From Isoetes taiwanensis (taxonomy: Eukaryota; Streptophyta; Lycopodiopsida; Isoetales; Isoetaceae): a stretch of DNA of 64,000 nt. This document shows positions 1 through 40,899 of the stretch, in pieces. Made by a program: the position numbers and the translations under genes. Numbering within the stretch: the stretch's first letter is position 1; each line of letters begins with the position of its first letter. A model generated the notes under the pieces. It ran no database searches, was not told where the DNA came from, and saw nothing but the letters and a program-made list of their open reading frames with translations. Where the stretch lies: the NCBI GenBank assembly GCA_021234155.1, contig JAJEKV010000036.1, positions 8,569,426 to 8,633,425 on the forward strand, in the 5' to 3' direction.

Positions 1-1085
1 ATTTTCCGTCCCCTTCCCCTGACCATGATTGAGAGAACGCAGAATGAACACAGGCATGACCCTGCCTTGGCCATATTGAATCTTCCTTTGATATCCTTTG
101 CCCCACATAAGAGGGTTCTTCTGATGTCAGAGATCTGGTCACAGCAGCAATTGCAAAAACAGGGCACTTCGTGACCATACAAGTTCGGTGGGCCGAACAC
201 CTTGATCCACTCCATATTGGTACCGGGGTCGGTCTTCCTCCATTTAATTATCCGCACCAAGACAAATGTGATCCCTTTAGCCTTATCCCCCTTACCCAGG
301 ACCGGTATGGCATTGCTAATTTTGTCTTCCCCGAACTTCGTTTTCACGGCATTGAGGCCGGAGAGCTTGACATCCTGGCAGTTCTCGCAATCACATGAAT
401 CCACCTCCACCGGGCTAAAAAATCCATTACTATCCTTGATTGAGCATTTCTTGGCTTTTTTTCGGAGTTTCATTTGGTAAACCTTCAGAGATGTCGCAAT
501 GATTTTCGGGATTTCATCGTTCTTTAGAAACGCCTTGAAATTTTTTCTATGCCTCTCAATTACCCTGTCATCTGCATCTTCCCACCTTCTGATTAGCCTA
601 ATGCTCGCTCTGGTTGTTTCCTTAATTCCATCCCACCGAATCACCAAATCTTTAACTTTGGCCAGCATTTCATCCATGGAAGCTCGAAAGATACTGTTTT
701 TAAGGCTACAACAGTCAGCCTCTGTATGTCCCTGTTTGACCGTTATGAGCTTATACAGAGCAGTATCCATCTCCTGAGTGAAGCCCCACATGTTCCATAT
801 CCAGTCTCTGTCGTTGGCTCTGCCATCCCAGTAATCTTTGTTTATTGCTTCCATTTTTTCCTTGCATGCCATGATAGTAGCATCTTCTTGAACCCCCATA
901 CAGACCGCAGCGGCCTTCTGCTGATCCTTGATAATCTCGAGCCCCAAATAAATTTCCTTGAGAAGCTTCCATCCCTGATCCCTTTTATTTTCCATCCAAA
1001 AAATTTGGGTCCATTCCTCATCCTCAATGCTGGTGCTGGTGTTCTGTCTAGAGGATCCGGCCCCGCTCTTCTTGCTGTTTGCCAT
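1..1085 (-). CDS. Cysteine-rich two-module protein, copy A (partial, runs off left edge)
   Basis: Reading the minus strand from an ATG at 1085 gives 361 codons with no stop, ending at the window edge. It aligns along its whole length with the two-exon gene at 31823-33313. Shared blocks include a Q-Q-x-A-A-x-x-C-M-G motif (about residues 55-65), D-C-C-S-L-K-N (about 125), W-E-x-A-D-D, and two copies of a cysteine module. Module 1 has C214, then D-S-N-G-F-F-S-P, then C231-x-C233-x2-C236; module 2 has G-R-F-N then C344-x-C346-x2-C349. The second cysteine of module 1 in the paralogue is a lysine here (K217). The frame is uninterrupted where the paralogue has a 375-bp intron. The last seen residues, G-R-x-G-R-K, match the paralogue's C-terminus, so the stop probably lies just outside the window. 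Metal or nucleic-acid binding is inference; I do not recognise the family. Confidence 0.75.
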   Translation of the reverse strand, partial: MANSKKSGAGSSRQNTSTSIEDEEWTQIFWMENKRDQGWKLLKEIYLGLEIIKDQQKAAAVCMGVQEDATIMACKEKMEAINKDYWDGRANDRDWIWNMWGFTQEMDTALYKLITVKQGHTEADCCSLKNSIFRASMDEMLAKVKDLVIRWDGIKETTRASIRLIRRWEDADDRVIERHRKNFKAFLKNDEIPKIIATSLKVYQMKLRKKAKKCSIKDSNGFFSPVEVDSCDCENCQDVKLSGLNAVKTKFGEDKISNAIPVLGKGDKAKGITFVLVRIIKWRKTDPGTNMEWIKVFGPPNLYGHEVPCFCNCCCDQISDIRRTLLCGAKDIKGRFNMAKAGSCLCSFCVLSIMVRGRGRK

Positions 1086-2340
1086 CTTCTATTCTGATTA
1101 CTGAGAGTACCCACGACCCGCCGGAACAGAAGCAGAAAAGGCTTCGAACAAAGGCAGCCAGAAAGACAATCAGTTACTTTTGAAACCTGGACTTTCCCCC
1201 TGCCCCCAAGGAATAACTAAAACACACCTCCCAAGAAATGCCAAATCAAAAAAGATAAGCCGTACTGTAGCAAGCAATCTAAGACTAAATACCCTACCCA
1301 GACTACCCAGAGATGAGTCAGAACTGGCACAACATCCTAGGGAAGCCCAAAAAGAACCTAATTGGCTGCCAGAAACCTCCAAACCAGGCTTCGAAATCCC
1401 CAGTTAAGTGTACCAGAAAATTTGCTGCCTTCAATAAACAACTGCTGGAATTTACAAACTTGAACCCGGAAACTCCGTTTTCATTGTAAATTAACCGGTA
1501 AAATGCCATCAATTTAAAAATTTTAAAGGCTAAACTAGTTAGTAATCCCTCTAAGTTTAGGATTCTTCAAATGATTTCGGTGTGGCCCCCAGCTTTGCTT
1601 AGCTTTTAGCTAATGATCTCCCTCTCTGCTTTCTGGCGACCTTCCTATATACCCCATACCTGATGAGCCTACAAACTGCAGTCTGCTCGTATGATCGTGA
1701 TCATTAGGTTTTCTGAAAGTGAATCCTAACTACTACTAACCAGAAAGTGGTTCGAAAAATATTTTAGATGTAACCAGAAAATTTGCCGTCTTCTACTTAT
1801 ATTTATCGGATTTTACAGAATTGAACTGGAAACCGCAGCTCCAAAATAAAGTTTGCTGGAACTTTGCCCGAATTTAGGCTAAAACAAAAATACATTCATT
1901 AATTGAAAAAATAAGATCAAACTAAGTGAAGAATATATAGAAAGAATCTCTTCGATTGGAAGCAGGCAGAGCACTAATTTGGAACATGCATACAAAGAAT
2001 GGCTTCCACCTATAAGGTTTTGAAAGAGCACAATAGCGGACTCACATTCACCGTTGTTGCTCCCAGGTAAACTGCAAGTCCTCCCGCAAAATTTCATTTG
2101 GTAGTAAGAGCATTAATACCCTAAAATCATGTGGGAGTGCTAGTGCCAGATCTATGGAGCCCGGGGCCACCAAGGCAATTGCAACTCTTTAATGCACTAA
2201 AACTTTGCTACAGGCTACGAATCTAAGATATGCAATTGCAAATATACTTTGCCACCCAGTCAGGCCAGGGCATGGCATGCCCAATATGGTCCCCTAGCCT
2301 TTTCAAAAAATCCCCAGTCCCCTAACCCTTAAACTGGAAA
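1086..2340. other. Non-coding stretch with a diverged ~90-bp direct repeat
   Basis: No convincing gene. A segment starting near 1411 (CCAGAAAATTTGCTGCCTTC) is repeated in diverged form near 1776. The two copies are about 365 bp apart and both contain a ...TTTACA..TTGAAC..GGAAAC... core. The part next to 1085 would be the 5' flank of the cysteine-rich ORF. Confidence 0.35.
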
Positions 2341-2419
2341 TTTGCATGTTTGGATGAATCTTTACATGCAATTAGCCATATGTCTGAAATTTTTGTTGGA
2401 ACCACCCGCAGTAGCCCTA

Positions 2420-3245
2420 AACCCTAACTGGACTTTAAGAGATTCAACCGGCAATATTCGAGCCAAACCCCCACTTTTTCGAACCCTGCTCCAAACTACC
2501 AATGAAACTACCACTTCTATATCCTCAATGAATTGATCCGGCTGCAGGTCAAAGAATGTTGCCCAGTGATAGATTGGTTCTGCACCAAATTCCATGGGGG
2601 CACTCATGGTGAACAAATTCCTCTCAAATCTGCCTCCAAGAAATGGTTGCGAGTTATGTGCAGCAACTCTCAGAGATCCTGGCCTATCAAAACAAAGAAT
2701 ACACAGGGGTAAAAGCATGTTAGGGTGTACCACTTTTGGAACCTGCAAAAGTACATACACTAGGTACTTCTGAACTGGGTACTTTCTCATTTTTCTTTTC
2801 ATTAAAACTAATACAAAAATCCAAAATAAAAGTCAAGGACATGGTAATATTCAAAGTTAAGGTAAAGATAATGCTATCGGAGACCAATATATATATAAAA
2901 AGTTCTAAAACATACCTTATATTGAGATATTATACAGGTACCCAGTACCCATTCCTGGCTACCTTTTTAGGTACCTTTTTAGTCACTAAATAATACTTTT
3001 TAAGGGACACCCTAACATGCTTTTACCCACAGATAGATGTAGTTGAATTCAATCCTGCAGAAGCCTATCCTAGAGTTAGAAACCCGGGCTAATCTAATGA
3101 AATTGCCAATTAAATTGATGGAGTCCTGGACTTCCTCCAGGGCCTGAACAGTCCCCAGACCCTGGAGAACAGCTTCGAGCAAAGCCTCATCCATTGGGTC
3201 TGGGATCTTGCCCCGAGATCGAGTCGGTGTTTGAGCGCCTAACAT
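2420..3245 (-). pseudogene. Unknown ORF split by a MITE insertion
   Basis: On the minus strand an ORF starts with ATG at 3245 and reads about 72 residues before entering the MITE at 3028. The coding frame resumes on the other side at 2706 (residues C-F-D-R-P-G-S-L-R-V...). If the MITE and one copy of the 4-bp target duplication are ignored, the two halves join in the same frame without a stop and continue to about 2420, roughly 190 codons in all. The protein has an acidic/leucine-rich N-terminal half (P-M-D-E-A-L-L-E-A-V-L) and a more hydrophobic second half. I recognise no domain. The uninterrupted joined frame suggests it was coding, or a recent fragment of a coding gene, when the MITE landed. 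Confidence 0.45.
2707..3028. mobile_element. MITE with ~22-bp terminal inverted repeats
   Basis: The left end reads GGGTAAAAGCATGTTAGGGT and the right end is its reverse complement, with matching extended to about 22 bp. The element is 322 bp, AT-rich and without coding capacity. It is flanked by a direct ACAG at 2703-2706 and 3029-3032, read as a 4-bp target-site duplication. The superfamily is not clear from the ends alone. Confidence 0.8.
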
Positions 3246-3829
3246 TCATCTCCTCCTTGTCCTGTTAGGTCCCTTCAAGATTTTATCACTATAATAAATA
3301 CCTGCGTGACGATAAAATTCTACAAGCAAGAACAGTCAAGAAAGAATCTATTAGTCCTTTCCGTTTGGCAAGCTCATTTGCACTTCCAGATATTTATTCC
3401 GTAGTTATATATACTCTTAGATCATTCTTGATGTAGATCACAATTAATTCTTTACCATGGTGGAACTGAGGCCCAAGACAACTAATATATTCTTGTTATC
3501 TTTCAAAGAAGCCTTTTGCTTCTAGCATTCATCATTAACTGAATGGAACTTCTATGGTCCAAGTACTTCATAATAGACTCTTCAACTTTTGGAAGCTAAA
3601 AGAATAATTCTCCAGTATGTTATAATTGTCATCACATGCGTGAACTCGTGAGGACCTCAATCCCTGCTAAACTAGTTTCTCATGGCTTTAGCTAAGTCCA
3701 TAACCATTCAATAACCATATTGGAGCATGACATGCGTATTGCAGAGTCAGATATTTGCTATAGAAATAACTAGTCCATCAGCTTGTAGACTCAACCAATT
3801 GGAACCTATAGAAGAAAACTAGCCCAAGA

Positions 3830-5599: not shown

Positions 5600-6734
5600 T
5601 TCCTTTGTCTTCAAGTTTTCATAGCATAAATGCAACCATATGTCATGGTAAGTTCTCTTATATTGCCATGCGGCCATAGCATACACAACACTCGCATGTC
5701 TTCTCAAACAACAAGAGACCTACATCAATGTCACAAAATTGGAAACCAAAAGTTGAACAAGCCGTTTATATTTGCTATATAACCTATTCAGATTTTCAAT
5801 GAACGCTGAACACCGAGACTATTAACTTAAGCTCATATTCATGGGCTAGATTTCCATACAGATAAGCCAAATTCAATGTTTCCTCTAGCAAGCATCATAA
5901 ATGCATTTGTTGAGCATCCTATAAAAAGTGCATGTATATACACTCGCGGTTTATTTAAACTTGTGTGTATTTTCTAAAATGACGTATACGACATTACTGT
6001 TGCAACACTGAAGACTATAAGTTGAATTAACTCTAGTTCTTTTGTAAAAGCCCATATTAGCCTTGTTATCTACTTACAATTGTGGACAATCTTTCATTTA
6101 GACAAGTCAAATTCAACCTCTCGTCTCTTATAGTTATTTCGGGTCTTGCAATATGAATGCTAAAATTACTACCTACGAACCTTTCAAAAATAAGAGGGGC
6201 AAGGACAAAAACACCAAGCTCGCAAGTTGGATTAGTTGTGTTGCATAGTTTGAGTACACAGTACTTCCAATGAGACATGCTTTTAAGGTAATGTTTTCAT
6301 AGGGTATGTTACAAATCCATGGATTTCCCTTCTCATTCCCGGTTATTACAGCAATGCACAAACTTCAACAGTCAAGCGAGCACATGGTCAAAGAAGTTAT
6401 TTGGCACTATTGTCACCAAATTGTTAAGTTACTATGTATGTTGTACATTCATAAGAGATCCTTATCTTCCAATTGAAGAAATTGAGCTTCTAACTGAGGT
6501 GATTGCAAATATAACCATCTTGGAATAACACTACATCATGAATATTCATTTCTAAGTTTTGGTCTAAAAACAATGCCTTCCTCAGAATGAATGGTCCTCC
6601 TGTCTTTGGTGGATGCAGCCACTTTCAGATATGTATTTATTGCCAAAAATCAATCCTACCTTTTGACATCGCGAAACTAACCTACGTTCGTGATCCTATT
6701 TGATGTGATACAAGTCGATAAGAGACTAGAAGAC
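5600..6734. repeat. Old dispersed repeat flanking the 4.1-kb TIR element (left side)
   Basis: No gene seen. The sequence shares diverged strings with 11.1-11.6 kb, for example AAATTCAATGTTTCCTCTA versus AAATCTAATGTCTCCTCTA, and a TTGTTGA/TTCGTTGA segment after each. The two homologous blocks lie on either side of the element at 6735-10822. Confidence 0.35.
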
Positions 6735-7283
6735 ATATAACAAGGTTGCATATGAAACGAGAGCAAATCATTGAAACGAGAGCAAAAGGAATATTCCTCA
6801 AAGATTCCTTTTTTTCGCCCAAAAAGGGGGCTAAAATGAGGTTTAAAAAACCAAAAAGGCATAAAATTGTATTTTGATCCCCCCAAAATAGCCCTTTTTT
6901 TGTGCGAAGAGAGAATTGACTGTGCAAAGTGACACTTTTCAGCCAACTAGAATTTTTTCCAAGTATGCTTTTTGAGAGAACTCCTGTTTTAAGAGAACAC
7001 AACTTTTCACCGAAAATAAAAGTGAAGCAATAACTGGCATTGTAGCATATTAAAAAAACTGAAGATAAAATCTTGATATTAACATGCAAAATTTAGAGTA
7101 TTTTTAAAATAATCAGTTTTGTGCAAAAGCATGAGGAGTGATGAGAGAAGGATCGAGCACAAAGAACAACGATTAGAGCTCTTTGATTCAAAAGGGCTAA
7201 CAAATATTCGGTTTTTCATGTGTCTTAGAAATTAGCAAATTTCTCTTGTTTAAAGAGCGGAGATAGCAACGGGAAAGGGATAC

Positions 7284-7610
7284 TGTGTTCGAACACGAGA
7301 AACCCTTTTTGTATTCCGGAATACACTTGCTATTCCAGAATAACAAACGGAAAAAAAAATATCAAACCTTTTTTGTATTCATCCTGTTCAGGAAGAGCCA
7401 GAGGAAAAACAAAGCAGCAACTAGGCCATTTTCAATTTATTTCAATCACTTTGGAATTTTTTTTATTTGTTTTGTAGGGATACAGGAATAAGGTTATAAT
7501 TAATAAAAGGAGTTTTTTGTTTTGTTTTGGGGAGACCAAGGATACAGGATTTGGGTTACAAATGAAAGAGGGAATCTTATTCTGGAATACACTTTGTATT
7601 CCAGAATACG
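7284..7610. repeat. Palindrome cluster, left side of the TIR element
   Basis: Palindromes seen are GTGTTCGAACAC (7284), GTATTCCGGAATAC (7311), TATTCCAGAATA (7331), TATTCTGGAATA (about 7579) and GTATTCCAGAATAC (about 7596). All but the first share a TATTCnnGAATA design. The same design appears at 10155-10335 near the other end of the element. Confidence 0.7.
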
Positions 7611-7679
7611 TTTTGGTTTTCAGAGAGACCTAGCATTTTTGTTTTTTCAGGCGATCTTTCTCTAGAGACTTAGCGCCTA

Positions 7680-8396
7680 CGATTTTAGTGTGGCGCTGGC
7701 TTTTACATAAGTTTTTGCTACAGGATAACCCATAGCTGGCTGCATCATCTTGGGTTTATCGAAGCTGGTCTGGCACAGGCATGTTGAAGGCATCTTAACC
7801 TTCAAGGCATGCTCTGAAGGTATGCCAAGAGCCAGATTTGTGCCTTGCGGAGCTGTGCCTGCTAAGATACGTTGAAGGTGAGGCCACAAGAAGGTGAGGT
7901 ATTTTCTGTAATTCAGGCTCTGTGATACGTTGAAAGTGAGGATCCCCTCTTGATATCGCCTACAGAGTCGTGCCAGTAGAAGCTATTGCTTGGATTTACG
8001 CATTTTCCATTCCTAAATCGACTGCAGTTGCGCATGTGAAGCCCATCTGCTTCCTGCTGCGTAAATATCCGTTCAGAGCTTTTCTTTTGCATCTGCTCAT
8101 ATGGAGAACATTGCCGCCCTTGTTCTTTTCTTTTGCCCTTGCCGCCCCTGTTCTCTGAGAACCCACATCCCAATTTTGTGCTTATATTGGACATGCAGGA
8201 GCCCAGAGTTTTTACCATTATTATATCCCTCGTTTATTTTGAAGCTTTCTTACAAGCTTGGCAAATGTTGTGAGAAAGAAATAGAAAAAATAGCTACTTA
8301 AAGATGGAAGGATCTCTGGACCAGAAGCATAAGTAATGGTCTACAGAAGGACGCAGATATTGAAATAGAACAGAGAATTCACAAGCTGCAACTTGA
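7680..8396. other. Interior of the TIR element, no recognised gene
   Basis: Open frames on both strands here, up to about 100 codons, show no family I know. The sequence is less AT-rich than its surroundings and could be another captured fragment, but I cannot support a product. Confidence 0.25.
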
Positions 8397-8890
8397 GTGG
8401 ACTTAATGACCATCAGAGCTTTTCATAGCAAAGTTCTTCGGAGATATAGCCTTGGAACTGCCCTTGGTTTTCGTATAAGACACGGTGTTCTTATAAATAT
8501 ACATGCGATCATTGTCTTTGTTGCTAAAAAGGTTCATAAGCAATGGCTTCTTGATGCTCAGAAGCTTCCAGCTGCAACACAGGTGTGTTTTTTTCTTCAG
8601 AGAGTAAGGCATGCATCCAGGTTGTTTCTTTGTAAAAAAGTCTTTGCTAAAACCAACATTATGTGAATGATGTTTTCATTAAGAAATTATGTTGTACTGT
8701 AAGTGTGCCAGTATATTCTGTTGTGCTATCCAATGTTCTAGGTCCGTGAGTATCCTGTACTTTTACTTCTCAATTAACTACATCTTGATTGTACAGGGTC
8801 CTGGAGGAGTCTGATATGATGTAGATGTTGTGCAATTTTATTATTTTGGTGCATCTTCAGTCACACCTAAGGAGCAGATCTACATAGAAA
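8397..8890 (+). pseudogene. NARROW LEAF1-like (trypsin-like peptidase family) gene fragment
   Basis: Exon 1 reads D-L-M-T-I-R-A-F-H-S-K-V-L-R-R-Y-S-L-G-T-A..., then an I-V-F-V-A-K-K-V-H-K-Q-W-L segment. This is the conserved N-terminal signature of the plant NAL1 family as I know it. It ends ...CAACACAG at 8582 before a GT donor. Exon 2 starts after TTGTACAG at 8797 and reads G-P-G-G-V, stop, Y-D-V-D-V-V-Q-F-Y-Y-F-G-A...T-P-K-E-Q. The family has tryptophan where the TGA stands. The inferred intron is 8583-8796 (214 bp). Homology ends near 8890, so the protease domain proper is missing. The TGA and truncation make this a pseudogene. It lies inside the TIR element, so transposon capture is the likely origin. 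In plants intact NAL1 affects leaf width and vein patterning; this fragment should have no such activity. Confidence 0.85.
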
Positions 8891-9670
8891 CGAACTGCAC
8901 ATCTGGGCAAACGAATCAATATGCACATCTGTCTAGCTAGAAAAAACGTGGATATATTGAAGAGTTTGTTGTCTTACAACTCTCAAATGCATTGGAGAAT
9001 CTGGACCAGTACATGCCAGCCCTGTTTTATTACATGCCAGTCCCGTTTTAAGACTCTAGATCTATTACTTAGACAATCTGATTGAATGGCTGCCTACCAC
9101 ATCATCTTAAATGGCCTAAATTCGTATTTTGACACTCTCCATCACAGGTTACATTCTTTCTCCAGTGTTGCCAAGGTAGCTCCTTACAGAAACTAACAGA
9201 GCTTACAAGGTAGAACCCAAGTTGTAGAGGATTTACATATACATGCTCAGTTTTACAGAAACTAAAGGGAGGAATTGGCTGAAATCATTTATATGTTGGA
9301 GAAACTATTATCAATTGAGCAGGACCATTCCATACTATTAAAGTAAAAACTTTGCAGTCATTTCATTGGGTTGTTTGGCATTAAGTATCCAATATTATAT
9401 GAGATACAACATGAGATTTACATGAGATTTAAGTTGGCCCTGGTGTCTACCTTTTCATTTGGTTCTGTTTGGCATTTAAGCATTCAATGTTATTTGAGAT
9501 ACAGCCAAATTAGGAGTTCTCTCCTCTCTTTATCCATTGATTTGCTTCTTGGCCATCCCTATTGTTAAGCATGGATTCAATCTGCACATTTGTCTAGCTA
9601 GAAAAATGAACTGCACATTTGGGCAAATGAATCAATCTGCACATCTGTCTAGCTAGAAAAAACGTGGATT
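8887..9670 (+). repeat. Direct repeat with GCACATCTGTCTAGCTAGAAA core
   Basis: The block near 8887-8955 (AACTGCACATCTGGGCAAAC, then TCTGTCTAGCTAGAAAAAAC) is repeated near 9605-9665, with a half copy just before it at 9570. Between them a short diverged tandem (GTTTGGCATT.AAG.AT.CAAT) occurs at 9371 and 9467. No coding sense is seen up to 10.1 kb. Confidence 0.6.
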
Positions 9671-10154
9671 GCCTTACAGCTCTCAAGTGCATTAGAGAAA
9701 ATAAGAAGAGTGTCAGTAGGCATTGTATTCCTTAAAAAAATTGTTCTACTGCATCACTATGAATTTCACTTGTCCAAGCTTACCCTTCTTCATTCAAGCC
9801 GTCTTAGGATTTGAATTTCACAAAACATTATAATACATTTTGAGTTTCCATTAGAAGCTCATCAGATTAGCACTGGTAATAAACTTGCACTGTTAGTTTA
9901 TTCATCTGCACATCCTTTTCTCACTGCTAATCAACAAGAGGAACCATATCTACCCCAGATCATAAACTGCATAAAAAACACGTATTTTGGATGGAATCTC
10001 TGTGGGTAACTCCAAGTTTGCAATGCTTAGAACATGATTTGGAAGTTCTAGATCAAATATCACCAGCTCAAGTGTAATCTGATTCGTGCTAAGTATGCTC
10101 AGCTTAACTTCATTTTTAATTGAGCGCATCTAAAGGTAATAACATGATAAATGT

Positions 10155-17901: not shown

Positions 17902-19775
17902 CTTTTTTTTTTTTTTTGAAGGATAAAGAATTTTCCATTTATAGGTAAACTATTACACAGCCTTATAGCAGATAGACACCCTCCTGAACAAGTTTGAAGA
18001 GGGGATAGCTACAAAGCCTTTGGACTGCATGTAAATGCCTTCTTCTTAAGGTGGTAGTTTGATGAAGGTCTCCCAAACAAGGGAGACATCATCTTCGACC
18101 ACACACTTGAACTTTCTAAGCTTCTCTATGAGCATGTGCAGTATTTGTGTGGCTGTAGTATATGCTTCTTTGCCTAGAGTGAAAGAATTGTGCCTTTTCC
18201 ATATGACCCATAATGCCCATGATCTGACAATATGAAAAGCTTTGCATTTTGAGACTGGCCATTCTACTGGATATCTACCTAGAAGGAGATCATTGGTCCC
18301 CAGTGTAATGTTGAACATATCCATGCACCACGACCACACAACTTGCAGGTCAGTGCACTCTGCTAAGCAGTGTTCCAGAGACTCTTCCTCCATCTTGCAC
18401 AATGGACATAGAGGGCTCACGTCAGCTTTGAATTTGGATACCCTTCTGTTTACCATAGGAGCCCTATGAATTACTTGCCATAAAAAAGAATTCACTCGGG
18501 GAGGGAGAAGTTTTATCCATACACCCCTCCAAATTTCCTTCAGCTGTGTGTCAGTGACTTGCACATTCCATTGAGCTGGTAGCAATAAAGTACCTTTTGT
18601 CTTCAGACGCTTATATGCTGATTTCACAAATGACCCCGCCTGCAAAGATTGATCGAGAACCCAAGGTTTCTTACTCGTGCTATTTATGTGGTTTGGAAGG
18701 CTTACTGCAATACATTCCCACATTGTTTTGTCGTTATTCTGGAGGCCGAATTTCTGCTTGAATACCATCCATTCTGTTAACTGACCACCTTCATACCACA
18801 TTGCACATGAACCAATGCCACAGCTGATCCATCTTCTCACCACTTTGATGTCAGCCAAAAGGGCCAAAGGACCATTCTTATTGCGGTAGTTGACTGGAAT
18901 CCACCATGGTGGAGTAGTACTCGCTGCACAATTACTGATATTCACAGTGAAGAGCTTTTTCACCACGTCCCACACGGAAATGAGACCTCTTAAGAACGGT
19001 GAGGCCTCAGAACTTGGTTTCAAGCCATAAAATAGAGACCATGGAAGAGATACTTGTGCTGATACTTTAGCATGTGTGCAGGAGAAACATATGGCCTGCG
19101 CTATGAGTTGGAGGCCTGGTGACTTCGTTTTCTCCTCTAAAATATTCCACATGCTTTTGGCTACTAGTATTTTGCTTTGTAGGGCTAAGTCAATCATGCC
19201 TATTCCCCCTTCTTCCTTATCTTTTTTACATTTCCACCATGCTATTTTCACTAGTGCTCCTTCCTCGTTTCCTCCCCACACAAAGTTTCTAATTGTCCCT
19301 TCCATTTCTTTTACTTTCTCTGGTGGGGCTATGAGGAGAGATGAGACATAGATGTGCGTGCTGCACAGCACATGCTTCACTACTACTATCCTGCCAGCCA
19401 ATGATAGTTTTTTGCGACTTTCCACCAATTCAGATGCTTCTGTAATCCCACTGGGTACTTTAATTCCCACTGGGATTCCAAGAAGGTTAGAATACTCCCC
19501 ATCTTTTATGATTTTCCACGGGAGGCGCTCTAAACACCTGGGATGTGGTCCTTCCCCAGCCCATTGCGCCGAGCATTTCTTCCAGTTGATGAGACATCCT
19601 GAGGCCAAGGAGAAAGTATCTAACAACTGACCGGCATTCTTTAGATTGCTCTCCTCTGCTACTAGAAACAAAAAAGAGTCATCTGCATATTGATTGCATA
19701 TCTGCTGAGATCCATCCCCCATTTGAAGACCTTCTACTAGACCATCCCTTGAGGCCTGTAGAAATAGCTGTGAGT
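17902..19775 (-). mobile_element. 5'-truncated L1-type LINE with 14-bp target-site duplication
   Basis: The insert is bounded by GCAAGGCCCAAATC on both sides (17888-17901 and 19776-19789) and begins with a T-run, i.e. a poly(A) tail on the minus strand. Codons run from about 19775 down to 18046. They start in the RT palm with Q-Y-A-D-D and continue through I-N-W-K-K-C, L-L-G-I-P-V-G, A-G-R-I-V-V-V-K-H-V-L and N-F-V-W-G-G. The C-terminal zf-RVT region has L-P-P-R-V-N-S-F-L-W and C-P-L-C...E-H-C-L-A-E-C. No internal stop interrupts about 575 codons, so it is young, but the upstream RT, endonuclease and ORF1 are missing. The open frame extends about 23 codons into the flanking repeat (to 19845). 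The duplicate block at 28-29 kb lacks the insert, so it came after the duplication. Confidence 0.92.
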
Positions 19776-19789
19776 GCAAGGCCCAAATC

Positions 19790-21085
19790 TTCCTTAAACA
19801 TGCCAAGATAAAACCATAGCCACAAAAAAACAAAAAAATTAACATGGATTAGGCAAGATTTGGACCGAAACAGGAAGGGGCTTTTGTTACAGATGAATTC
19901 CGAAGGCTTTCGGTGAAGATATCAATCTACTTACCTGTGGTACTGGCCGGAACACTCGACGACTGTTCAAAATTACCTTCTTTGCCTCATGAATTAGCAT
20001 TCTTGAAGCAAATCTTGAAGAAATTTGTTTTGGCATTTTATCATGTGCACGAGGCTCAAGAGCTCGGGATTTCTTGCAAGAAGTGTTGTACGGTGATCCA
20101 ATAAAATGAAAATTTGAACTTGGTGTATTTGCACTTAAAGTTGAAAAACCTAAGCTAAACTAGTGATTTAGGTGAAAGTCTTGTTGAAGCATGGCCTGGC
20201 TTGTAGACTCACTTTGAAGTATAAAATAGTGTGCTTCAAGATTTTAGGAAATATTGCATTTAAAAAAAAAACCCCTCTAAAAAAGAGCAAATTATCATTG
20301 TTTTGGAAAACTTAAAAGTCTCTTGCACGAGTCTTAGACTTATATCATGATGCAATCCTTAAAATATTGCAAGAAGATATCCACAAAATACATATTACTA
20401 TTTTTCTTAAGTTGCACTAGTTTCTTAGCAATTTTCCATCAAAAATCATGATTCCTTTGAGCATATTTGCACCTCTTTTGTTGGCAACATCTAATGCACA
20501 CTAGTTGCAGAGTTGTCAGAGTTGACGGGAAGTGTCAGAAGTTAAAGAAGATCACATTTGTTTGAGTTAATAAAATTTGCTTACTGGTTAGCTTTGTGAC
20601 AGTCTGGCTTGCAAAAATAAGATTTTTTGAGCCTATTTGCATGATTTTTGTGGAAACAACTGGATGTACTAGGTTTGCAGATCTCAAAGTTAATGCAAAG
20701 CATCAAAAGTAAAAAACTCATCAATTATTTCATCTGCAAAAATTAGCATGCTGGCTGGAGCATTGATCAAGTTTTCACTTGGTTAGATTTGCAAATTTGA
20801 GAGTGTTCTGCATATATTTTCTTGCATCAAACTTTTGAGCATAGATTCTTTACATGCAAAGCATCTTTTTTAATTGCAATTGCATTAAAATTTGATTATA
20901 AGAGCAAATGGCATAACTTTTACTGAGGTCACATTTTTCTTTGTCTTGGAAAAGCACTTCCAACTCAAAATTTGACCCTTTTTTTGCAATCTTTTTGCTC
21001 AGAGTTGTTGTCTCAAGCAATCTGGAGGTCTTGAACCACTGAGGTTAAAGCTTTGCCAGGAATACCTTCAACATTTTCCAAGGTC
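19790..21085 (-). repeat. Continuation of the long repeat, with LTR-related end
   Basis: This is the right part of the repeat interrupted by the LINE, almost the same as 29580-30845. It holds an AATAAAATG string near 20100. It ends with the dispersed 80-bp motif (TTGTTGTCTCAAGCAATCTG...CAGGAATACCTTCAACA) that closes the LTRs at 38.4 and 44.2 kb. Weak minus-strand copia C-terminal peptides lie at 19900-20050. No intact gene. Confidence 0.55.
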
Positions 21086-24756: not shown

Positions 24757-25821
24757 TTTAAGGATTTGTTAAGTTACAAAATGATGGCAATCTCTATAAG
24801 TATCAAACTGGTAAGGAATGGTGCATAATTGCACTGTATGTAGATGACAATATAATGATCTCAAAAGGAATTAAAGTTCTGGAGCATTGCATGAATGTTC
24901 TAAACATTAAATATAGGATGTCATATTTAGGTGAGCTGAGGAAATTCTTAGGAGTTGAAGTTCACAGGGATAGAGCCAATAAGATATTTACACTTACTCA
25001 GAAGAGCCAGATAGAAGGGATGCTTGACAAATTCAAAATGAGAGACTGCAACATTGCTAAAACTCCTATAATACCAGGGTGTAAGATTTCTGCTAAGATG
25101 AGCCCAAGAACTGAAAGAGAACGAGAAGAGATGAAAAAGGTACCTTACGTGTCTCTGATAGGATGTCTTTCTTATGTGGCAAATTGCACTCGTCCAGATA
25201 TAGCTTATGCTGTAAACATGTTAAGCAGGTATAATAATGACCTAGGAAGGGATCACTTGATAGCAGCAAAGAGGACATTAAGATACCTTAAGGGGACAAT
25301 GAATGATGGAATTAGTTACAATACAGAGAACTTACAATTGCAGGCATTTTGTGATGCGGATTGGGGAGGGGACCTTGATACAAGGAAGTCTACCTCAGGG
25401 TATTTAATCTTCTTAGGAGGAGCACCAATTGCATGGAATGCAAAAAACAGAATGATATTGCTATGTCTAGTCTTCGAGGCGTAATATGCTTCAAATTGCA
25501 TTAGCTACCAAAGAGTTGATATGGGAAAGAAGGCTCATGTTTGAATTAGGTTATGATCAATTTAAGGCTCTGAGAATTACATTGTGATAGTACCGGTTGC
25601 ATAGCTATGACTAAAGACCGGTTCTTCACGAAAAGGACTAAGCATATTGAGTTAGAACTGCACTTTATCGAGATGTTGTGAAGAAAAAATCACGATCAAG
25701 ATGGTATATGTGAACACCTCAAGTCGGTTAGCGTATTATTCCTGACTAAAAGCTCTATCGGAAGGAAAATTCTGAGTGAAGAATAAAATTCAATTACCGT
25801 GTCATAACATGAAGGGGGAAT
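24757..25821 (+). pseudogene. Ty1/copia RT-RNase H remnant, copy B
   Basis: A near-identical duplicate of 13108-14174 with the same truncated start and the same A-run frameshift near 25442. It lacks the extra T of copy A, so RT and the first RNase H motifs read continuously (24855-25484) until a private TAA where copy A reads A-E-A-E-Y. Y-V-D-D lies at about 24840 and C-D-A-D-W-G-G-D at about 25350. The duplicated segment includes non-element flank on both sides, so this is a segmental duplication rather than a second insertion. Confidence 0.85.
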
Positions 25822-29640: not shown

Positions 29641-30860
29641 AAAAACAAAACAATTAACATGGATTGGGCAAGATTTGGACCGAAATAGTAAGGGGCTTTT
29701 GTTACAGATGAATTCCGAAGGCTTTCAGTGAAGATATCAATCTGCTTACCTGTGATACTGGCCAGAAAACTTGACGACTGTTCAAAATTACCTTCTTTGC
29801 CTCATGAATTAGCATTCTTGAAGCAAATCATGAAGAAATTTTTGTTTTGGCATTTTATCATGTGCGCGAGACTCAAGAGCTCGGGATTTCTTGCAAGAAG
29901 TGTTGTACGGTGATCTAATAAAATGAAAATTTAAACTTGGTGTATTTGCACTTAAAGTTGAAAAACCTAAGCTAAACTAGTGATTTAGGTGAAAGTCTTG
30001 TTGAAGCTTGGCCTGGCTTGTAGACTCACTTTGAAGTATAAAATAGTGTGCTTCAAGATTTTAAGAAATATTGCATAAAAAAAAAAAAAAAAAAAAACTC
30101 CAAAAAAGAGCAAATTGTCATTGTTTTGGAAAACTTAAAAGTCTCTTGCATGAGTCTTACACTTATATCATGACGCAATCCTTAAAATATTGCAAGAAGA
30201 TATCCACAAAATACATACTACTATTTTTCTTAAGTTGCACTAGTTTCTTAGCAATTTTCCATCAAAAATCATGATTCCTTTGAGCAGATTTGCACCTCTT
30301 TTGTTGGCAACATCTAATGCACACTAGTTGCAGGGTTGTTAGAGTTGACGAGAAGTGTCGGTTAAACAAGATCGCATTTGTTTGAGTTAATAAAATTTGC
30401 TTGCTGGTTAGCTTTGTGACTGTCTGGCTTGCAAAAATAAGATTTTTTGAGCCTATTTGCATGATTTTTGTGGAAACAACTGGATGTACTAGGTTTGCAG
30501 ATCTCAAAGTTAATACAAAGCGTCAAAAGTAAAAAACTCATCAATTATTTCATCTGCAAAAATTAGCATGCTGGCAGGAGCATTGATCAAGTTTTCACTT
30601 GGTTAGATTTGCAAATTTGAGAGTGTTCTGCATATATTTTCTTGCATCAAACTTTTGAGCATAGATTCTTTACATGCCAAAGCATCTTTTTGAATTGCAA
30701 TTGTATTAAAATTTGATTCTAAGAGCAAATGGCATAACTTTTACTGAGGTCACATTTTTCTTTGTCTTGGAAAAGCACTTTCAACTCAAAATTTGACCTT
30801 TTTCTTCGCAATCTTTTTGGTCAGAGTTGTTGTCTCAAGCAACCTGGAGGTCCTGAACCA
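29641..30860 (-). repeat. Right-block counterpart of 19.8-21.05 kb
   Basis: Colinear with the left block, including TTTGGCATTTTATCATGTGC, the AATAAAATG string and GTTGTCTCAAGCAACCTGGA near 30826. After that the two blocks diverge. No gene seen. Confidence 0.6.
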
Positions 30861-31822
30861 AACGAAATAAGGGGTTTTAAGAGGGTTTTTTTTTTTAATC
30901 TCAGAGATTTTTCAAAGTCTTCAACGTGATTGTCAACCAATTGTGACCAAATATTGACTTGGTCAGGATTGCAAATTTGAAGGGATTTTGCAAATTGTTT
31001 TGGGCCAGACTTTTTGATCATAGCATGTTAGAGCATCTTCTTGAATTGGAATGGCATTAAAAATCGGGATTTATTGTGCATGGCATAAGTTTTGCTCAGA
31101 CTGTCTTTTTTTTGTTTTGGAAAATTACTTGGAACTTGGATTTTTTGCATAATCTTTGCAATTTTCTTGCATATATTGGTTACTTGGATGAGGTTCTAAC
31201 CACTGAGCTTGAAGGTTTGCCAGGAACACCTTCAATAAAGATCCCCCTAGATTCCCTAATCTCCCCCTTAGATTCCTCAAGATTCGTCGGTAAAATTTGC
31301 ACCAATCCTCGATCAAATGCATATCCACCCTTTGTTTGACATTTTACCTTTTCAATATCTTATCACATAATTCAAACCAAAGTTAAGGTTTGAGCAAAAT
31401 CCATTGCCCGATAGACCGTTTTAGAATATGAATTCCATTACCTACACTACAGATTCTATACTTAGTTCCCTTCTTAAAACACTTATTTTTTTCTTCAGTA
31501 CCTAGAGAACATTATTATGAAATGAAATGGTGCCTCGGGAACAGGGCCGGGGGGCTATTAGAGCCTCATCCAACTTTACTTCTGTCACCTCAAGCTAGTC
31601 TGTCACCTCAAGCTACTTTAATCATCAGACCAGGCCAGTAGCAGTAGACAGTCAGTAGGATTCTTTAATTTTCGATCTTGCAGGGAATTACTTGCTCTAT
31701 ATTCTCGCCCTTCATTCCTGTCAAGAACTCTGTTCCTACAAGAACAGAGTTCCTACAAAAGAATTACTCTGTTCCTCTTGTATTCTCGGCCTTCATTCCT
31801 GTCAAGAACTCTGTTCTTCAAG
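30861..31822 (+). other. 5' flank of the cysteine-rich gene with LTR-motif fragment and duplicated leader
   Basis: Near 31190-31235 there is another copy of the LTR-end motif (GAGGTTCTAACCACTGAG... CCAGGAACACCTTCAA). Close to the gene, ATTCTCG(G)CCTTCATTCCTG is present twice (about 31701 and 31783) and AGAACTCTGTTC pairs with AAGAACAGAGTTC, so the presumed leader can fold. TCTGTCACCTCAAGCTA is also duplicated in tandem near 31580. Confidence 0.45.
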
Positions 31823-33313
31823 ATGAGGCCTAGAAAGACTGCATTTAAGGGTGAATCTTCTCGCCAGAGCCGTTGGAAAGATATGGATGACCATAAAACT
31901 ATTGATCAAGAAAGTAAGGATTGGAAGATCATCCTTAAAATGGAGAAGGATGGCGACCCTGCATGGATAAAAATGAGACAACTCGCGGTCTCCTTCAATA
32001 TTATCAGAGAGCAACAAAATGCTGCTGTCGAATGTATGGGAATTAAAAAAGAAGGGCTCATTGCTGCATGCCAAGAAGAAATTATAAGGCTGGAAAATCA
32101 ATATGCGGAAGGAAAAGCCAGTGATCGAGATCTAGTTTGGAATATGATCAAAAAGCTTCAAGAACTTGATCTTCTTCTCTATCAAATGATTCGGATCAAG
32201 TCGGGACACTCTAAAGATGACTGCTGCAGTCTGAAAAACCAAGCTTTCAAGAAAAGCATGTCTGAGTTGCTCCAATCAACTAAAGGCTTTGCTGAAGAAC
32301 TTGAACTCTTGGGTTGGAATTCTGTGGCCTCTTTTCATCTGGTCCAAGTTTGGGAAGGTGCAGATGACCACGAGACCATTAGATTCAAGGAAAATTTAAA
32401 GGATGATCTCTCACTGTTAGCTGCTGCTGAGCTCAGAAATATTGAAGTGGATCATGATACCGTCCTCCATAAATTATTAGTTCCTACAAAAGAATGCTCT
32501 ATATGTGATTCCAATGGTTATTTCAATCCCCGAGAGGCTGCTCAATGTTCCTGCCCAAACTGCTCGAAGATAGTCAGCCTCCATCTGGACAAGCAGTCAA
32601 CAAAGATCTCTGACACTAAACTCAAAAACAAAATTCCTACCTTGGGCAAATACGACAGGATAAATGGTACGCTCCCCTCCTTTAAAAGTGCTCTTCTAAA
32701 TTCTATTGATGGGGAATGTACTTTTAACAATATGGATGGTAATCCCAATAGCATTAGGAGGAACTCCTTTTTTAAGATGAATGTGTCCATTCTCTAGCAT
32801 GATAGTTTTCTTAGTGATTTTGAGCAAATTTATGGCAGAATTCCTAAGCCTAAGAATCAGTTTGGTTGGATGGATTGGTGGGTTCAAACATCCAAAAATA
32901 TTAAGAAAAGCAAGAAATGCTCTCATCTTTGATGAGGAGATTGTTTGGCCCAGGTCTGTGATCAAACAGTCCAAATATGATATCAAATGGATTAATGAGG
33001 TATTTCATTAACTTACTTATTTCTTCTGTTGGATTTTTCAGGCAATATTCTGGTGGGACAGAAGAAGCTGAAATGGGATCGAATCAACCTTATGGTTAAC
33101 TCGATGTGGCTGGATCAATTTGGTGCCAACTCAGAATATCATGGAGACCAATGCCAATGTGACTGTTCCTGCATCCAAAATCTTGATTACAGAAGAATCC
33201 TGATATGTGAAGCCTTGGATCATACCGGTCGTTTCAACCCGTCCAAATTCCAGACTTGCAACTGCCTCTATTGTGCTTTCTGCTCAACAACAAGGGGATT
33301 AGGTCGAAAATGA
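31823..33313 (+). CDS. Cysteine-rich two-module protein, copy B (two exons, intact)
   Basis: Exon 1 is 31823-32666 and exon 2 is 33042-33313, joined across a GT-AG intron (32667-33041, phase 1). The product is 371 residues. The intron was placed by alignment with the intronless copy at 1-1085: the joined sequence keeps a gap-free 40-residue match around the junction, including K-W (292-293) and F-G. The start ATG is the first in the long frame. Module 1 is C225-x2-C228-D-S-N-G-Y-F-N-P, then C242-x-C244-x2-C247. Module 2 has C319, C321, C323, C325, C337, then G-R-F-N-P and C354-x-C356-x2-C359-x2-C362. The rest is mostly helical and charged. I recognise no known domain; zinc binding is inference. 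There is no signal peptide or membrane segment. It ends TGA after G-R-x-G-R-K. Confidence 0.75.
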
Positions 33314-33554
33314 TAAAACTTTGATCTTTATGGGATATTTCAGAACCACATTTTTGGTTATATATTTTGGACTAGAGAATGCGTACCTATATCTCATGCA
33401 TTTCTCAACTTTCTGTACTTACTCTTCACTATATTAATATACTTGCTGAAACCTTGTTTTTTAGTCCAAATACTTCTACATTTGGACATTTTAAAGTTAG
33501 TGGAACTAATAATTCTCTTAGAAATATATTTCAACAAGAGCATCATGTGTGTTT

Positions 33555-33690
33555 TTGGTGTTCCTGGAAAAACCCACAACCTCAGTGGTTCAGAACCTCC
33601 AGGTTGCTTAAGGCAACCACTCTGAGTGCCAAAGTTCCAAGAAAAATGTTCCAACAATTTTTAAATGCGACTTTCCACCCTCAAGAGCAA
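33555..33690 (-). repeat. LTR-end motif with GGTTGCCTTAAGCAACC hairpin, inverted
   Basis: Reverse-complemented, this reads CACTCAGAGTGGTTGCCTTA, AGCAACCTGGAGGTTCTGAA, CCACTGAGG and TTCCAGGAACACC. That is the last ~80 bp of the LTRs ending at 38470 and 44284. It lies downstream of the cysteine-rich gene, in inverted orientation to the copies at 30.82 and 31.19 kb upstream of it. Confidence 0.7.
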
Positions 33691-33699
33691 AAAGTCCGT

Positions 33700-34640
33700 C
33701 TCCGGAAAAATGGTTTCCAAATACACACCAAATGAATTTTGATTCTGTTTCTTGTGTACATGGCTGCCCAAAAGCTACATCTATCACATTGCGAGAAGTC
33801 GATGGGATTTGATAAGGCTAGATAGATAAAAGACATTCCCGACCAAGTCAATTTTGGTCAATATCCCCGGCGAGCTCGATTTTAGAACTTCGATCTTTGG
33901 TGCTTTTTTGAGATCTAACACCTTTGCCTATTCGGAAAATGTCTGCACGCAATGGGCCTTGATGGTCTTTGCTAATGAAAATCAAGATTTTCTATTTTTT
34001 GAAATTTTCTTAGGCTGACTGTTGCAAATCAAGAACAGAGGTAGGAGCAGATCTATCCTTACAGAGAGTGTAGGCAAATATGGTTCTATGAGCAACAACC
34101 ATGCATGAGAAAAGGTCCTAAAGACTTTGAGAGTCTTTATGCATTGCTACATGGCTGAATGTAGGTCTCTACTTCAATGAGTTGTAATAAGAATGCACTT
34201 CCTTATACTGATGGTTCAGGCAATCGAGAGAGTTGGACAACACTTGTATTGTGTATGCTTAAATACCAACCAATAATGTCATAGCTCTCGGGATGCAATG
34301 CATAAGGTAAACAATGCTGGCAGAGCGTTTTTTTCCAATAGGGTGGTAATATAGAACACTGGGAACTCAACAACAAGGGTCGGATTTTCAATTAAATCAG
34401 GTACACATAGGCAAATAACATGAATCCCAAGCTCTGAGTCTTGGGTACAGGATCAAATAGGTAAACATTCAAATAATCAGATGAATTCGTCAATAATTCA
34501 AGCTGAAAATCAAGTATGGAGGTCAGAATCAAGCTTCAATCAAGCAAGCCGATCCTTCTTCAAGGTAAACAATCGCTTATTCACCTCAAAGCCCTCGAAT
34601 TTTTCTTCTGCACAAAAGCCCCTTTTTGTAATTCCCCTGT
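33700..34640. other. No gene recognised
   Basis: AT-rich sequence without a convincing frame, motif or repeat that I can name. Confidence 0.4.
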
Positions 34641-38615: not shown

Positions 38616-40355
38616 ATGCCTTGTCAACACTTTGAGCTAAACGTGCCTATTCCAGTCCCTACTTTTGATCCGAGCATGAATGCCAACAATTTCCTCAAGA
38701 CTTTTAAAGAGTACTACCAAGAATATGGTTACAAAAAGGGTCAAAGTTCTCACGAGTTTAAAAAATGTTTCAAGAATGATGAAGTCAGGGCTTGGTTAGA
38801 GTATGTTATAAGTTTAGGCACCAATTCTTGGGAAGAACAGGTTAAAAAGTTTTTGGCACGTTTTGGAAGGCTCTTGGACCCCCAAGATCTAATTTTTGAG
38901 TTACAAACTTTTCGCATTAATCATGGTGAAAGTGTGCACCAATATGTTGAAAGATTCAATCTCTATCTTGTCAAATGCCAAGTCAATCATGTTCCTAACC
39001 ATACCTTGCATCTAGTGGCTTCTTTTATCAGGGGATTAAGCAGCAGACAGAGGATACACAGAAAGCTATTGAAGATCCAAAAACAAGAGGGATTTGACAC
39101 AATACACAAGGCTTTCACCAAAGCCACTGAAATTGCAGATATGATATCTTACTTACCAGATGATGTGCACTCACCAAGTGATCCTTTTTTTCCAGGTTAT
39201 GAGCAAGAATATATGGGAGCAACACCTGTACCTGTTTATGCTGTCCAAAAGGAGAAGAAGAAGGTAAAGATGGAAGATGATGAGGCTCCTGCAGCAGATG
39301 TAAGAGCAGAGATTACCAAGGTGTCTGAGGCACTGGTTGAGGTAACCAAACAGCTCCAAGAGCTGAAAAGCTCAAAATTTGAAAAGAAAACTTACCCTCC
39401 ATGTGTGCATTGCTTTAGAGACACTCATTCTTCTGACTACTGCTGGTATAGGCCATGCACAAAGTGTGGAAAAAGAGGACATTTTGGTAAAGAATGCCCT
39501 GTGTGTGCATTTTGTAAGGCTGTGGGACATTATGAGGATAGATGCAGTGTTAAAGAGTATTTTGCCAGACAAGAAAAGTCTAAAATTAATGAACCAAATG
39601 CATCTATAAGGTTTGTGCAGGAAATTGAGGAACAAGAGGAGATAATGGCTGTTCACACCAGAAGAATGAATAATGCCAAAGGGAGAGAATCAACACATGA
39701 GGAAGCTGACATCTTGAAACATAGGGATGCTGAGCAAGCAGTGGCTGTGCCTCCTCCTCCTGCTCAGAAATTTGTCAAGAAAGAAAAAGAGTGTGAGGAC
39801 TTTGAATATTTGTTAAAGAATTCAAAAATCTGTGTAGATCTGCTGACCTTGCTCAAGATAGCCCCTTCTTACAGAAAAAAGGTTCTCAATCTGACTAAGG
39901 AAGATGAGTTTGCCCTAACAAACCACATTGAGGAGCACATGCTCACCCAGGATGATTATGATCCTGGAGCTTTCACTTGTGTTGCCAAAATGGGAAGAAA
40001 TATCTTAACCAAGGTTCTGCTAGATGGAGGATCACCCCTGAATGTAATGCCACACCATGTTATGAGGCTATGTGGTCTAGAAATAGACAAGAAGGCTCCA
40101 ATGATCTTGAAATCTTTCTTTAACACAAAAATCAATCCAGTTGGAATAGTTAGCAACATGCCTATTGATGTTGAAGGAATAATGGTTGCAGCTAACTTTG
40201 TTGTGGTTGCTTTTGAAGGAATAGAAGACAAATCAGATATATATGACTTACTTTTGGGCAGAAAGTGGCTTTCTACGATTGATGCTAGGCACATTGTGGT
40301 CAAAAGGAGAATGCACTATTTCAAATGGAAAAAAAAAGGTAACATTGTACAATAA
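38616..40355 (+). CDS. Ty3-type Gag-protease polyprotein (579 codons)
   Basis: Starting at an ATG at 38616 the frame is open for 579 codons. Residues about 20-200 look like a retrotransposon Gag core (F-L-K-T-F-K-E-Y-Y...W-L-E-Y-V, then Q-Y-V-E-R-F-N-L-Y). Three CX2CX4HX4C zinc knuckles follow at about residues 261, 281 and 298 (C-V-H-C..., C-T-K-C-G-K-R-G-H-F-G-K-E-C, C-A-F-C...). A retropepsin segment has L-D-G-G-S-P-L-N-V-M near residue 470, the DGGS variant common in plant Ty3 elements, and later L-L-L-G-R-K-W-L. A separate short frame from ATG 38516 to TAA lies just upstream and may once have encoded the true N-terminus. The frame ends shortly after an A9 run. Gag packages RNA; the protease cleaves the polyprotein. 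Confidence 0.88.
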   Translation: MPCQHFELNVPIPVPTFDPSMNANNFLKTFKEYYQEYGYKKGQSSHEFKKCFKNDEVRAWLEYVISLGTNSWEEQVKKFLARFGRLLDPQDLIFELQTFRINHGESVHQYVERFNLYLVKCQVNHVPNHTLHLVASFIRGLSSRQRIHRKLLKIQKQEGFDTIHKAFTKATEIADMISYLPDDVHSPSDPFFPGYEQEYMGATPVPVYAVQKEKKKVKMEDDEAPAADVRAEITKVSEALVEVTKQLQELKSSKFEKKTYPPCVHCFRDTHSSDYCWYRPCTKCGKRGHFGKECPVCAFCKAVGHYEDRCSVKEYFARQEKSKINEPNASIRFVQEIEEQEEIMAVHTRRMNNAKGRESTHEEADILKHRDAEQAVAVPPPPAQKFVKKEKECEDFEYLLKNSKICVDLLTLLKIAPSYRKKVLNLTKEDEFALTNHIEEHMLTQDDYDPGAFTCVAKMGRNILTKVLLDGGSPLNVMPHHVMRLCGLEIDKKAPMILKSFFNTKINPVGIVSNMPIDVEGIMVAANFVVVAFEGIEDKSDIYDLLLGRKWLSTIDARHIVVKRRMHYFKWKKKGNIVQ

Positions 40356-40899
40356 GTTAGGAGAATTTGAAAGCATGAATTTCATTGAAGAAGAAATGCT
40401 GCTATCAAATCGATGTGGAGAATTTGAGCTGAATGCACTAGAGTTGGAGTCTAGCATAAAAATTCCAAAAGAATTGGCTTCAGCTAAATCAGGTAATTTT
40501 GCTTATTTATGGTTTGATGGTGGTGTCTCCAAAAGGCTTAATGTGGCATCTTCTGCTGCTATTCTCAAGGATGCTTCCAATAGATTGCTGGCTAAGGTAG
40601 GAAGAATTTATCCAAATGTCACTTCTAATGTGGCAGAGTACAAGGCATTGATTGCAGGTCTTCAAGAAGCAAGAAATCTAAACATCAGTGATGTAATCAT
40701 CTTTGGAGACTCTCAGCTTGTCTGCAGGCAAATATCAGGAGAATATCAGGCTAAGAGTGAAGACATGATGCAACTCAGAGATCAAGCTATGCTGGAACTG
40801 AAGAATTTTGAAACCTGGGAACTTTGCCATGTGCCAAGGGAGCAAAATTGTGAAGCAGACTCGTTATGCAGAAAGTGTGCTACTGGAACACTTAGCTGA
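40330..40899 (+). CDS. RNase H domain in the -1 frame after protease; no reverse transcriptase
   Basis: The frame is entered from gag-pro by a -1 shift at the A9 run (40328-40340). It reads a linker of about 55 residues and then an RNase H fold. The acidic quartet is visible: D in W-F-D-G-G (about 40515), E in A-E-Y-K-A-L (about 40637), D in G-D-S-Q-L-V (about 40709) and D in C-E-A-D-S (about 40858). This resembles the archaeal-type or plant RVT_3 RNase H found as an additional domain in Tat/Ogre-clade elements. No RT, first RNase H or integrase is present between or after. The related frame continues to about 41020 (H-L-A-E-G-A-I-Q-E-D) after another shift. The element is therefore an internally deleted, non-autonomous derivative, or the shift is a plain mutation. 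Confidence 0.8.
   Translation, partial: KKKVTLYNKLGEFESMNFIEEEMLLSNRCGEFELNALELESSIKIPKELASAKSGNFAYLWFDGGVSKRLNVASSAAILKDASNRLLAKVGRIYPNVTSNVAEYKALIAGLQEARNLNISDVIIFGDSQLVCRQISGEYQAKSEDMMQLRDQAMLELKNFETWELCHVPREQNCEADSLCRKCATGTLS

Follow-up and report, generated by a model that had tools for sequence, protein, structure and literature searches.

Two related cysteine-rich reading frames, loci A and B, lie in opposite orientations in a 64,000-nucleotide stretch of the Isoetes taiwanensis genome (the window, C1041:8569426-8633425). Are they host genes or were they left there by a transposon, and where do the two copies of a C-x-C-x2-C module in each of them come from? The first-pass annotation had offered either a plant-specific nuclear protein family or a new transposon-encoded gene. 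We addressed these questions by searching the whole genome (1,658,258,908 bases in 1110 contigs).

The window loci and their parent LINE family

At locus A (minus strand, window 3-1085) a frame of at least 361 codons is open and is cut by the window edge; in the genome it is complete at 371 codons, stop to stop. Locus B (31823-33313, plus strand) begins with a 324-codon ORF followed by stops. When its 375-nt GT-AG segment (Table 1) is taken out, 371 codons and a stop are obtained, which is presumably the source of the 371-codon count in the first-pass annotation. The two ORFs had been described there as aligning along their entire length. The proteins do align over both halves (36% and 39% identity), and their cysteine modules line up with each other, but B is not a single ORF.

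A genome search with the A protein gave 3163 first-look candidates, and 113 were scored and matched; most of these matches covered only A residues 1 to ~272. Stretches of 10 kb were taken around seven matched places. Six of them contained long ORFs on both sides of the match and the seventh, L015 on C1067, was a spliced relative of A. Full-length copies measured 6.5-6.9 kb. In L010, the one copy whose ORF1 was tested, ORF1 matched DUF4283 (E 1.6e-14) and ORF2 matched RVT_1 (1.7e-31), zf-RVT (2.5e-11), and Exo_endo_phos (2.1e-10); the ORF2 of L012, a frame cut short, matched RVT_1 and Exo_endo_phos. A poly(A) and target duplications were present in 4/4 copies tested (L009, 17 bp; L010, 17 bp; L012, 18 bp; L026, 16 bp), a set that left out L011, L013, and L014. 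For the copies read, full-length did not mean intact: the ORF2 of L009, L010, and L012 is broken by frame shifts.

Loci A and B are most probably dead copies of this large plant LINE family. The transposon side of the earlier alternative has therefore held, both loci being made of LINE parts, and the nuclear protein family is unsupported. An LTR-retrotransposon gag identity was rejected because the adjoining ORFs have an APE endonuclease, a reverse transcriptase (RT), and DUF4283.

Plant L1-type LINEs have an ORF1 with DUF4283 and an ORF2 with APE endonuclease, RT, and zf-RVT. The present family is like them in having two main ORFs with these domains, a poly(A), and target duplications, and it is by these traits that the likeness is drawn. 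Unlike them, it has an extra cysteine module ahead of DUF4283 and a third coding exon past ORF2 that can be reached by splicing. At L013, two head-to-tail A-like LINE copies (1-3654 and 6352-10000) lie ~6.35 kb apart and are 98.5% identical. A third match to exon 2, at C1078:16782469, points to a longer tandem array there.

Table 1. Positions of the parts of loci A and B in the window.
Feature	Position	Strand	Remark
Locus A, exon-2-derived part	3-274	-	runs past window edge; homologue of the exon that follows ORF2 in full-length copies
Locus A, module 2	39-107	-	within exon-2-derived part
Locus A, C-x-C-x-C-C-C	141-161	-	within exon-2-derived part
Locus A, exon junction AAAG^GG	between 275 and 274	-	
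Locus A, exon-1-derived part	275-1085	-	first 270 codons of LINE ORF1
Locus A, module 1	378-446	-	within exon-1-derived part
A element, 5' UTR	1086-3250	-	interrupted by two insertions; matches full-length copies at 1086-1384, 2505-2706, and 3028-3250
Locus B, exon 1	31823-32666	+	ORF1 N-terminal part; donor AAATG^GTACG
Locus B, module 1	32495-32563	+	within exon 1
Locus B, intron remnant	32667-33041	+	375 nt, GT...TTTTTCAG
Locus B, exon 2	33042-33313	+	ends in stop
Locus B, C-x-C-x-C-x-C	33152-33172	+	within exon 2
Locus B, module 2	33206-33274	+	within exon 2

Locus B derives from a copy that was never spliced and from which internal deletion has removed the greater part of the intron: most of the remaining ORF1 and nearly all of ORF2 are deleted, and pieces of ORF2, including its very end, stay. 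It represents a more deleted form of an L025-like copy; L025 retains ORF2 endonuclease sequence where B has none; within the 10 kb fetched, L025 gave no exon-2 match.

The 5' UTR of the A element is interrupted twice. A ~320-bp insertion (window 2707-3027), with inverted ends GGGTAAAAG...CTTTTACCC and CTGTG on either side, is missing from the relative L002 and looks like a small non-autonomous DNA transposon. The other insertion (1385-2504, ~1.1 kb) is partly common to L002 and L023, and a stretch inside it (~1473-1749) is absent in both. We considered the two interruptions as introns and rejected this, as the larger is without GT-AG ends and the smaller has the transposon-like inverted ends.

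The splice junction and its retrocopies

After residue 271, the A protein originates from neither ORF1 nor ORF2. In full-length copies ORF1 continues as ...CTAAAG|GTCCGA..., and the part of A that is missing at this point resurfaces downstream as ...TTTTTTCAG|GGATCACA. Locus A reads CTAAAGGGATCACA, the product of a GT-AG removal, and its junction corresponds to donor CTAAAG^GTCCGA joined to acceptor TTTTTTCAG^GGATC of the full-length relative L013. The intron so defined is 4.34 kb long in L013 and ~4.81-4.86 kb in L009, L010, L012, and L026. By this junction, A is evidently a retrocopy of spliced LINE RNA.

The match of A to the LINE ends short of the usual 3' end, with no poly(A) there and no target duplication seen. 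Since the A-like copies L002, L003, L023, and L024 have their 3' flank in common with A, the group was counted as one spliced event. L018 (C1039), which belongs to the B subfamily, has a junction at the homologous site in different letters, as judged against B. It also has a poly(A) and a 17-bp target duplication, and these features together mark it as an independent retrocopy of spliced RNA; its frame is broken by one frameshift and one stop.

These two, the A group and L018, were the only independent spliced insertions found. When the joined exons of L010 were used as query, six of 150 scored rows extended at least 30 residues beyond the junction on both sides, and they comprised five A-group loci and L018. 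With the B protein as query, one of 113 rows crossed the junction, and this was again L018; the joined exons of L012 yielded no confirmed further spliced copy. Among the 150 scored exon-2 matches, not all of which were read, three are known spliced copies and represent one event. Several candidates were rejected. C992:106054, a possible third spliced copy, was unspliced when its sequence was read, and the unread C983:702809 and C1078:14663624 cross the junction nominally with the other exon ~5-6 kb off, as in unspliced copies. C907:5168708, C1031:10923918, and C1105:168650 were considered as fused frames and match A over exon 2 only.

The donor was AA[A/T]G^GT in 22/22 unspliced rows out of 24 rows in all, near-duplicates included (L005 and L027 are one place, and B and L017 are duplicates). 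Its glycine codon was GGT in 20/20 while the other 15 fully conserved G/A/V/T/P/L/R/S codons all vary; this codon count was anchored on the donor motif, and the 22/22 count was not. The acceptor was CAG^G in 18/18 unspliced loci, including L032 and L044, which are altered near the exon 2 end, and the junction was in frame in all 18. Ten exon pairs were picked by hand from the A-protein and exon-2 match lists. At the level of DNA, these data show a GT-AG junction in two independent retrocopies and, among the copies read, splice sites that do not vary.

Selection on exon 2 and the fate of the window copies

In the 17 of 21 loci that could be scored by script, the ORF2 stop lies 28-52 nt before exon 2; the remaining four have a stop that is visible by eye. 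Compared to the ORF2 frame, exon 2 is in the same frame in nine of 17 loci, shifted by one in seven, and shifted by two in B. We therefore rejected module 2 as the C-terminus of ORF2: the stop precedes it and the frames differ. Upstream of exon 2, its frame stays open for 245-349 codons in L020, L021, and L022; in the last of these it runs into ORF2-like protein, apparently via a frameshift.

In 14 copies picked for an intact exon 2 (91 pairs), pN/pS was 0.158 in the frame of exon 2 itself as compared to 1.42 and 1.36 in the other frames, a rough ratio because synonymous sites were saturated (pS 0.80); corrected dN/dS was computable for part of the pairs, and 16/91 counted <1. These 14 were drawn from 20 extracted copies: L032 and L044 (altered ends), L001 (a retrocopy), and B (90 codons, with a gap) were dropped, and L026 and L018 entered only a 16-copy figure (120 pairs) of 0.234 versus 1.28 and 1.17. 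L009 and L011 were not extracted, being changed near the end or having a deletion in exon 2. For exon 1, pN/pS was 0.208 (15 copies).

Amino-acid identity in the 14 copies was 0.21 over the ten codons that precede the acceptor and rose to 0.85 over the ten that follow; at the acceptor itself, TTnCAG|G was invariant in its bases. Stops occurred in 10 of the 150 best exon-2 matches, which are the best-preserved part of 1741 first-look candidates. These data show that exon 2 is under protein-level selection that begins at the acceptor. Exon 2 is part of a gene and not a tail.

The first-pass annotation had inferred selection from the comparison of A with B and had suggested dN/dS as a check. Against the nearest copies this inference failed: dN/dS was 1.61 for A versus L002 (13 nonsynonymous and 2 synonymous changes) and 1.76 for exon 1 of B versus L017 (14 and 2), both on small counts, and 0.77 for exon 2 of B versus L017 on four changes (3 nonsynonymous, 1 synonymous). 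Differences between B and L017 amounted to 16/840 sites in exon 1, 4/374 in the intron, and 39/854 in the 3' flank; by these counts, preservation of the exons does not clearly exceed that of the intron. Loci A and B themselves now have a neutral look, and it is in the LINE lineage that selection shows. A segment of 3.3 kb or more (window 30855-34128 or beyond), flanks included, is common to B, L017, and L019, so these three were copied within a larger unit. C1022 carries L024, related to A, along with L017, related to B; a duplication of the window segment would give this pattern.

One possible explanation for the fused ORF is that it is a by-product of cryptic splicing of LINE RNA and that its product has no role, like the SpIREs of human L1. 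The neutral look of A and B today agrees with this, as does the finding reported for human L1 that spliced retrotransposed copies are generally evolutionary dead ends (PMC5860796). However, the selection test already weighs against this explanation: exon 2 belongs to neither ORF1 nor ORF2 and yet its own frame is strongly protein-selected, its conservation begins at the acceptor, and neither splice site varies among the diverged unspliced copies that were read. We give it a small chance. It could also be speculated that exon 2 is translated without splicing, either as a stop-codon readthrough or frameshift product of ORF2 or from an internal start, as it stands in the ORF2 frame behind one or two stops in 9/17 loci and has an in-frame ATG in the open stretch upstream in 10/18 unspliced loci. 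The chance of this seems smaller still: exon 2 is in the +1 or +2 frame in the other 8/17 loci, so that recoding would have to differ among subfamilies, the upstream ATG is absent in 8/18, and conservation is poor over the ten codons just ahead of exon 2 (identity 0.21 in 14 copies and 0.26 in the six that share the ORF2 frame).

Another possibility is a domesticated plant gene family of which A and B are functional host genes, and the frames of A, intron-less B, L002, and both exons of L017 are indeed free of stops. This is highly improbable in view of the dN/dS of 1.61 and 1.76 between closest copies (13-14 nonsynonymous versus 2 synonymous changes), the stops or frameshifts in the sister copies L003, L023, L024, and L019, and the 3163 first-look candidates for the A protein; we rejected a host gene family on its copy number, shared duplicated flanks, and neutral-looking dN/dS. 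Finally, the A junction could have arisen without splicing by a DNA deletion at the 3-base microhomology AGG, which is present at both break points. We find this barely credible, as L018, from a subfamily with proteins ~36-42% identical to that of A, is joined in the same way, with both ends at homologous positions, and is itself a retrocopy with a target duplication and poly(A).

The two-module protein and its probable place in the LINE

Module 1 lies within the first ~270 codons of ORF1 and module 2 within the exon past ORF2. They are thus at opposite ends of the LINE and are joined only by splicing, which was beyond the view of the first-pass annotation. Its observation of two duplicated C-x-C-x2-C modules was correct: profiles of exon 1 and exon 2 aligned in one stretch only, C-x3-D-x2-G-x-F-[NS]-x6-C-x-C-x2-C, with an hhalign E of 3.5e-5 over 27 columns (probability 71.7; a single comparison without shuffled control). 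Exon 2 has an additional H-x3-C-x-C-x-C-x-C ahead of module 2 and is basic (pI 8.4-9.4 in six copies, with 6.8-8.0 for exon 1 in five copies). Its conserved part spans 91 codons, and A-type frames are ~ten codons longer.

No named domain had been recognized in these proteins, and we reached the same result. A Pfam search with both halves, which included zf-CCHC and the A2L zinc ribbon, gave nothing reaching the cut-off (best E 0.04), and a PDB sequence search with both halves gave no match below E 0.4. AlphaFold2 predicted helices in the N-terminal part of A (blocks with pLDDT 61-87 within residues 21-200, falling to 43 at one dip) and modeled the cysteine parts with low confidence (mean pLDDT 38.6 for the exon-2 model); a fold search of the PDB with the A model gave no match below E 0.39. 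Metal binding by the cysteine modules is plausible, and they may bind zinc and nucleic acid.

We consider it very probable that this is a three-protein LINE, that its two-module protein is made from spliced RNA, and that A and B are dead copies of it. Transcription would most likely start from the LINE's own 5' UTR. The unspliced RNA would serve as template for retrotransposition and would encode ORF1p (the N-terminal helical domain, module 1, and the DUF4283 domain) and ORF2p (endonuclease, RT, and zf-RVT). Removal of the ~4.8-kb intron, which contains the rest of ORF1 and all of ORF2, would produce an RNA for a ~370-aa protein composed of the ORF1 N-terminal domain, module 1, and a basic cysteine-rich exon with a second copy of the module. 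Copy A would have formed by reverse transcription of this spliced RNA and would have spread later inside larger duplications. Our knowledge of splicing here comes entirely from DNA retrocopies; we infer that the spliced RNA is made and translated in living cells, and likewise the start of transcription, the metal binding, and the role of the protein.

Because the two-module protein has the N-terminal helical domain in common with ORF1p and is without DUF4283, we propose that it might join or compete in ORF1p assemblies, where it could bring a second, basic cysteine module for nucleic acid. That it acts through this common domain as a regulator or accessory of the retrotransposition particle is a tentative suggestion, which we hold to be somewhat short of probable.

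A broader reading, on which we are evenly divided, is that the LINE has a retrovirus-like programme: the unspliced RNA would be the genome and also the message for ORF1p and ORF2p, and a dedicated protein with a regulatory or accessory function would be made from a spliced subgenomic mRNA of a split gene, the second exon of which lies past ORF2. If this is true, the LINE must keep its splice sites, export unspliced RNA, and bar spliced RNA from reverse transcription. The small number of spliced insertions (two events; 3/150 scored exon-2 matches) suggests that spliced RNA is kept from reverse transcription. Retroviruses have two-exon accessory genes such as tat and rev. Like these, the LINE would derive a spliced message for a small basic product from its full-length transcript; unlike in retroviruses, replication is that of a LINE.

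Spliced transcripts are also described for the LTR elements copia, BARE1, Bagy2, Ogre, and CRR (PMC3735527). As in these, the splice would make a separate message beside the unspliced RNA; unlike these, the present element is a LINE and the product combines the ORF1 N-terminal part with a dedicated 3' exon. Human L1 SpIREs are likewise retrocopies of spliced LINE RNA, and in their description splicing inhibits retrotransposition and the ORF1p variants are non-functional (PMC5860796). The precise GT-AG removal that characterizes SpIREs relative to the full-length LINE is present in A and, judged against B, in L018. In contrast to the SpIREs of that description, the splice studied here would create a selected frame, and the exon that it links to ORF1 belongs to neither ORF; given the selection on exon 2 and on the splice sites, an accident with a non-functional product does not appear to describe it.

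Among the papers listed in full-text searches of the open-licence literature, none was recognized as a description of a LINE with a selected, splice-dependent third protein. With such a gene, LINEs would join LTR elements and retroviruses in the use of subgenomic splicing. Because a LINE is copied from its own RNA, each jump puts a functional intron in danger of being lost, and a LINE that keeps an intron of ~4.8 kb would show RNA sorting or a cis-preference strict enough to protect introns. This raises the questions of what the LINE gains from a third protein and how spliced and unspliced RNAs are told apart.

The window also contains other transposon sequences. These are a fragment of another LINE ORF2 (18046-19842, minus strand; zf-RVT E 1.4e-14, with a weak match to the end of RVT_1), a Copia-type RVT_2 fragment (24855-25481, plus strand), and the remains of an LTR retrotransposon (38616-40896, plus strand), in which a Retrotrans_gag with a zinc knuckle, just below the cut-off, overlaps an RNase H-like ORF (RVT_3).
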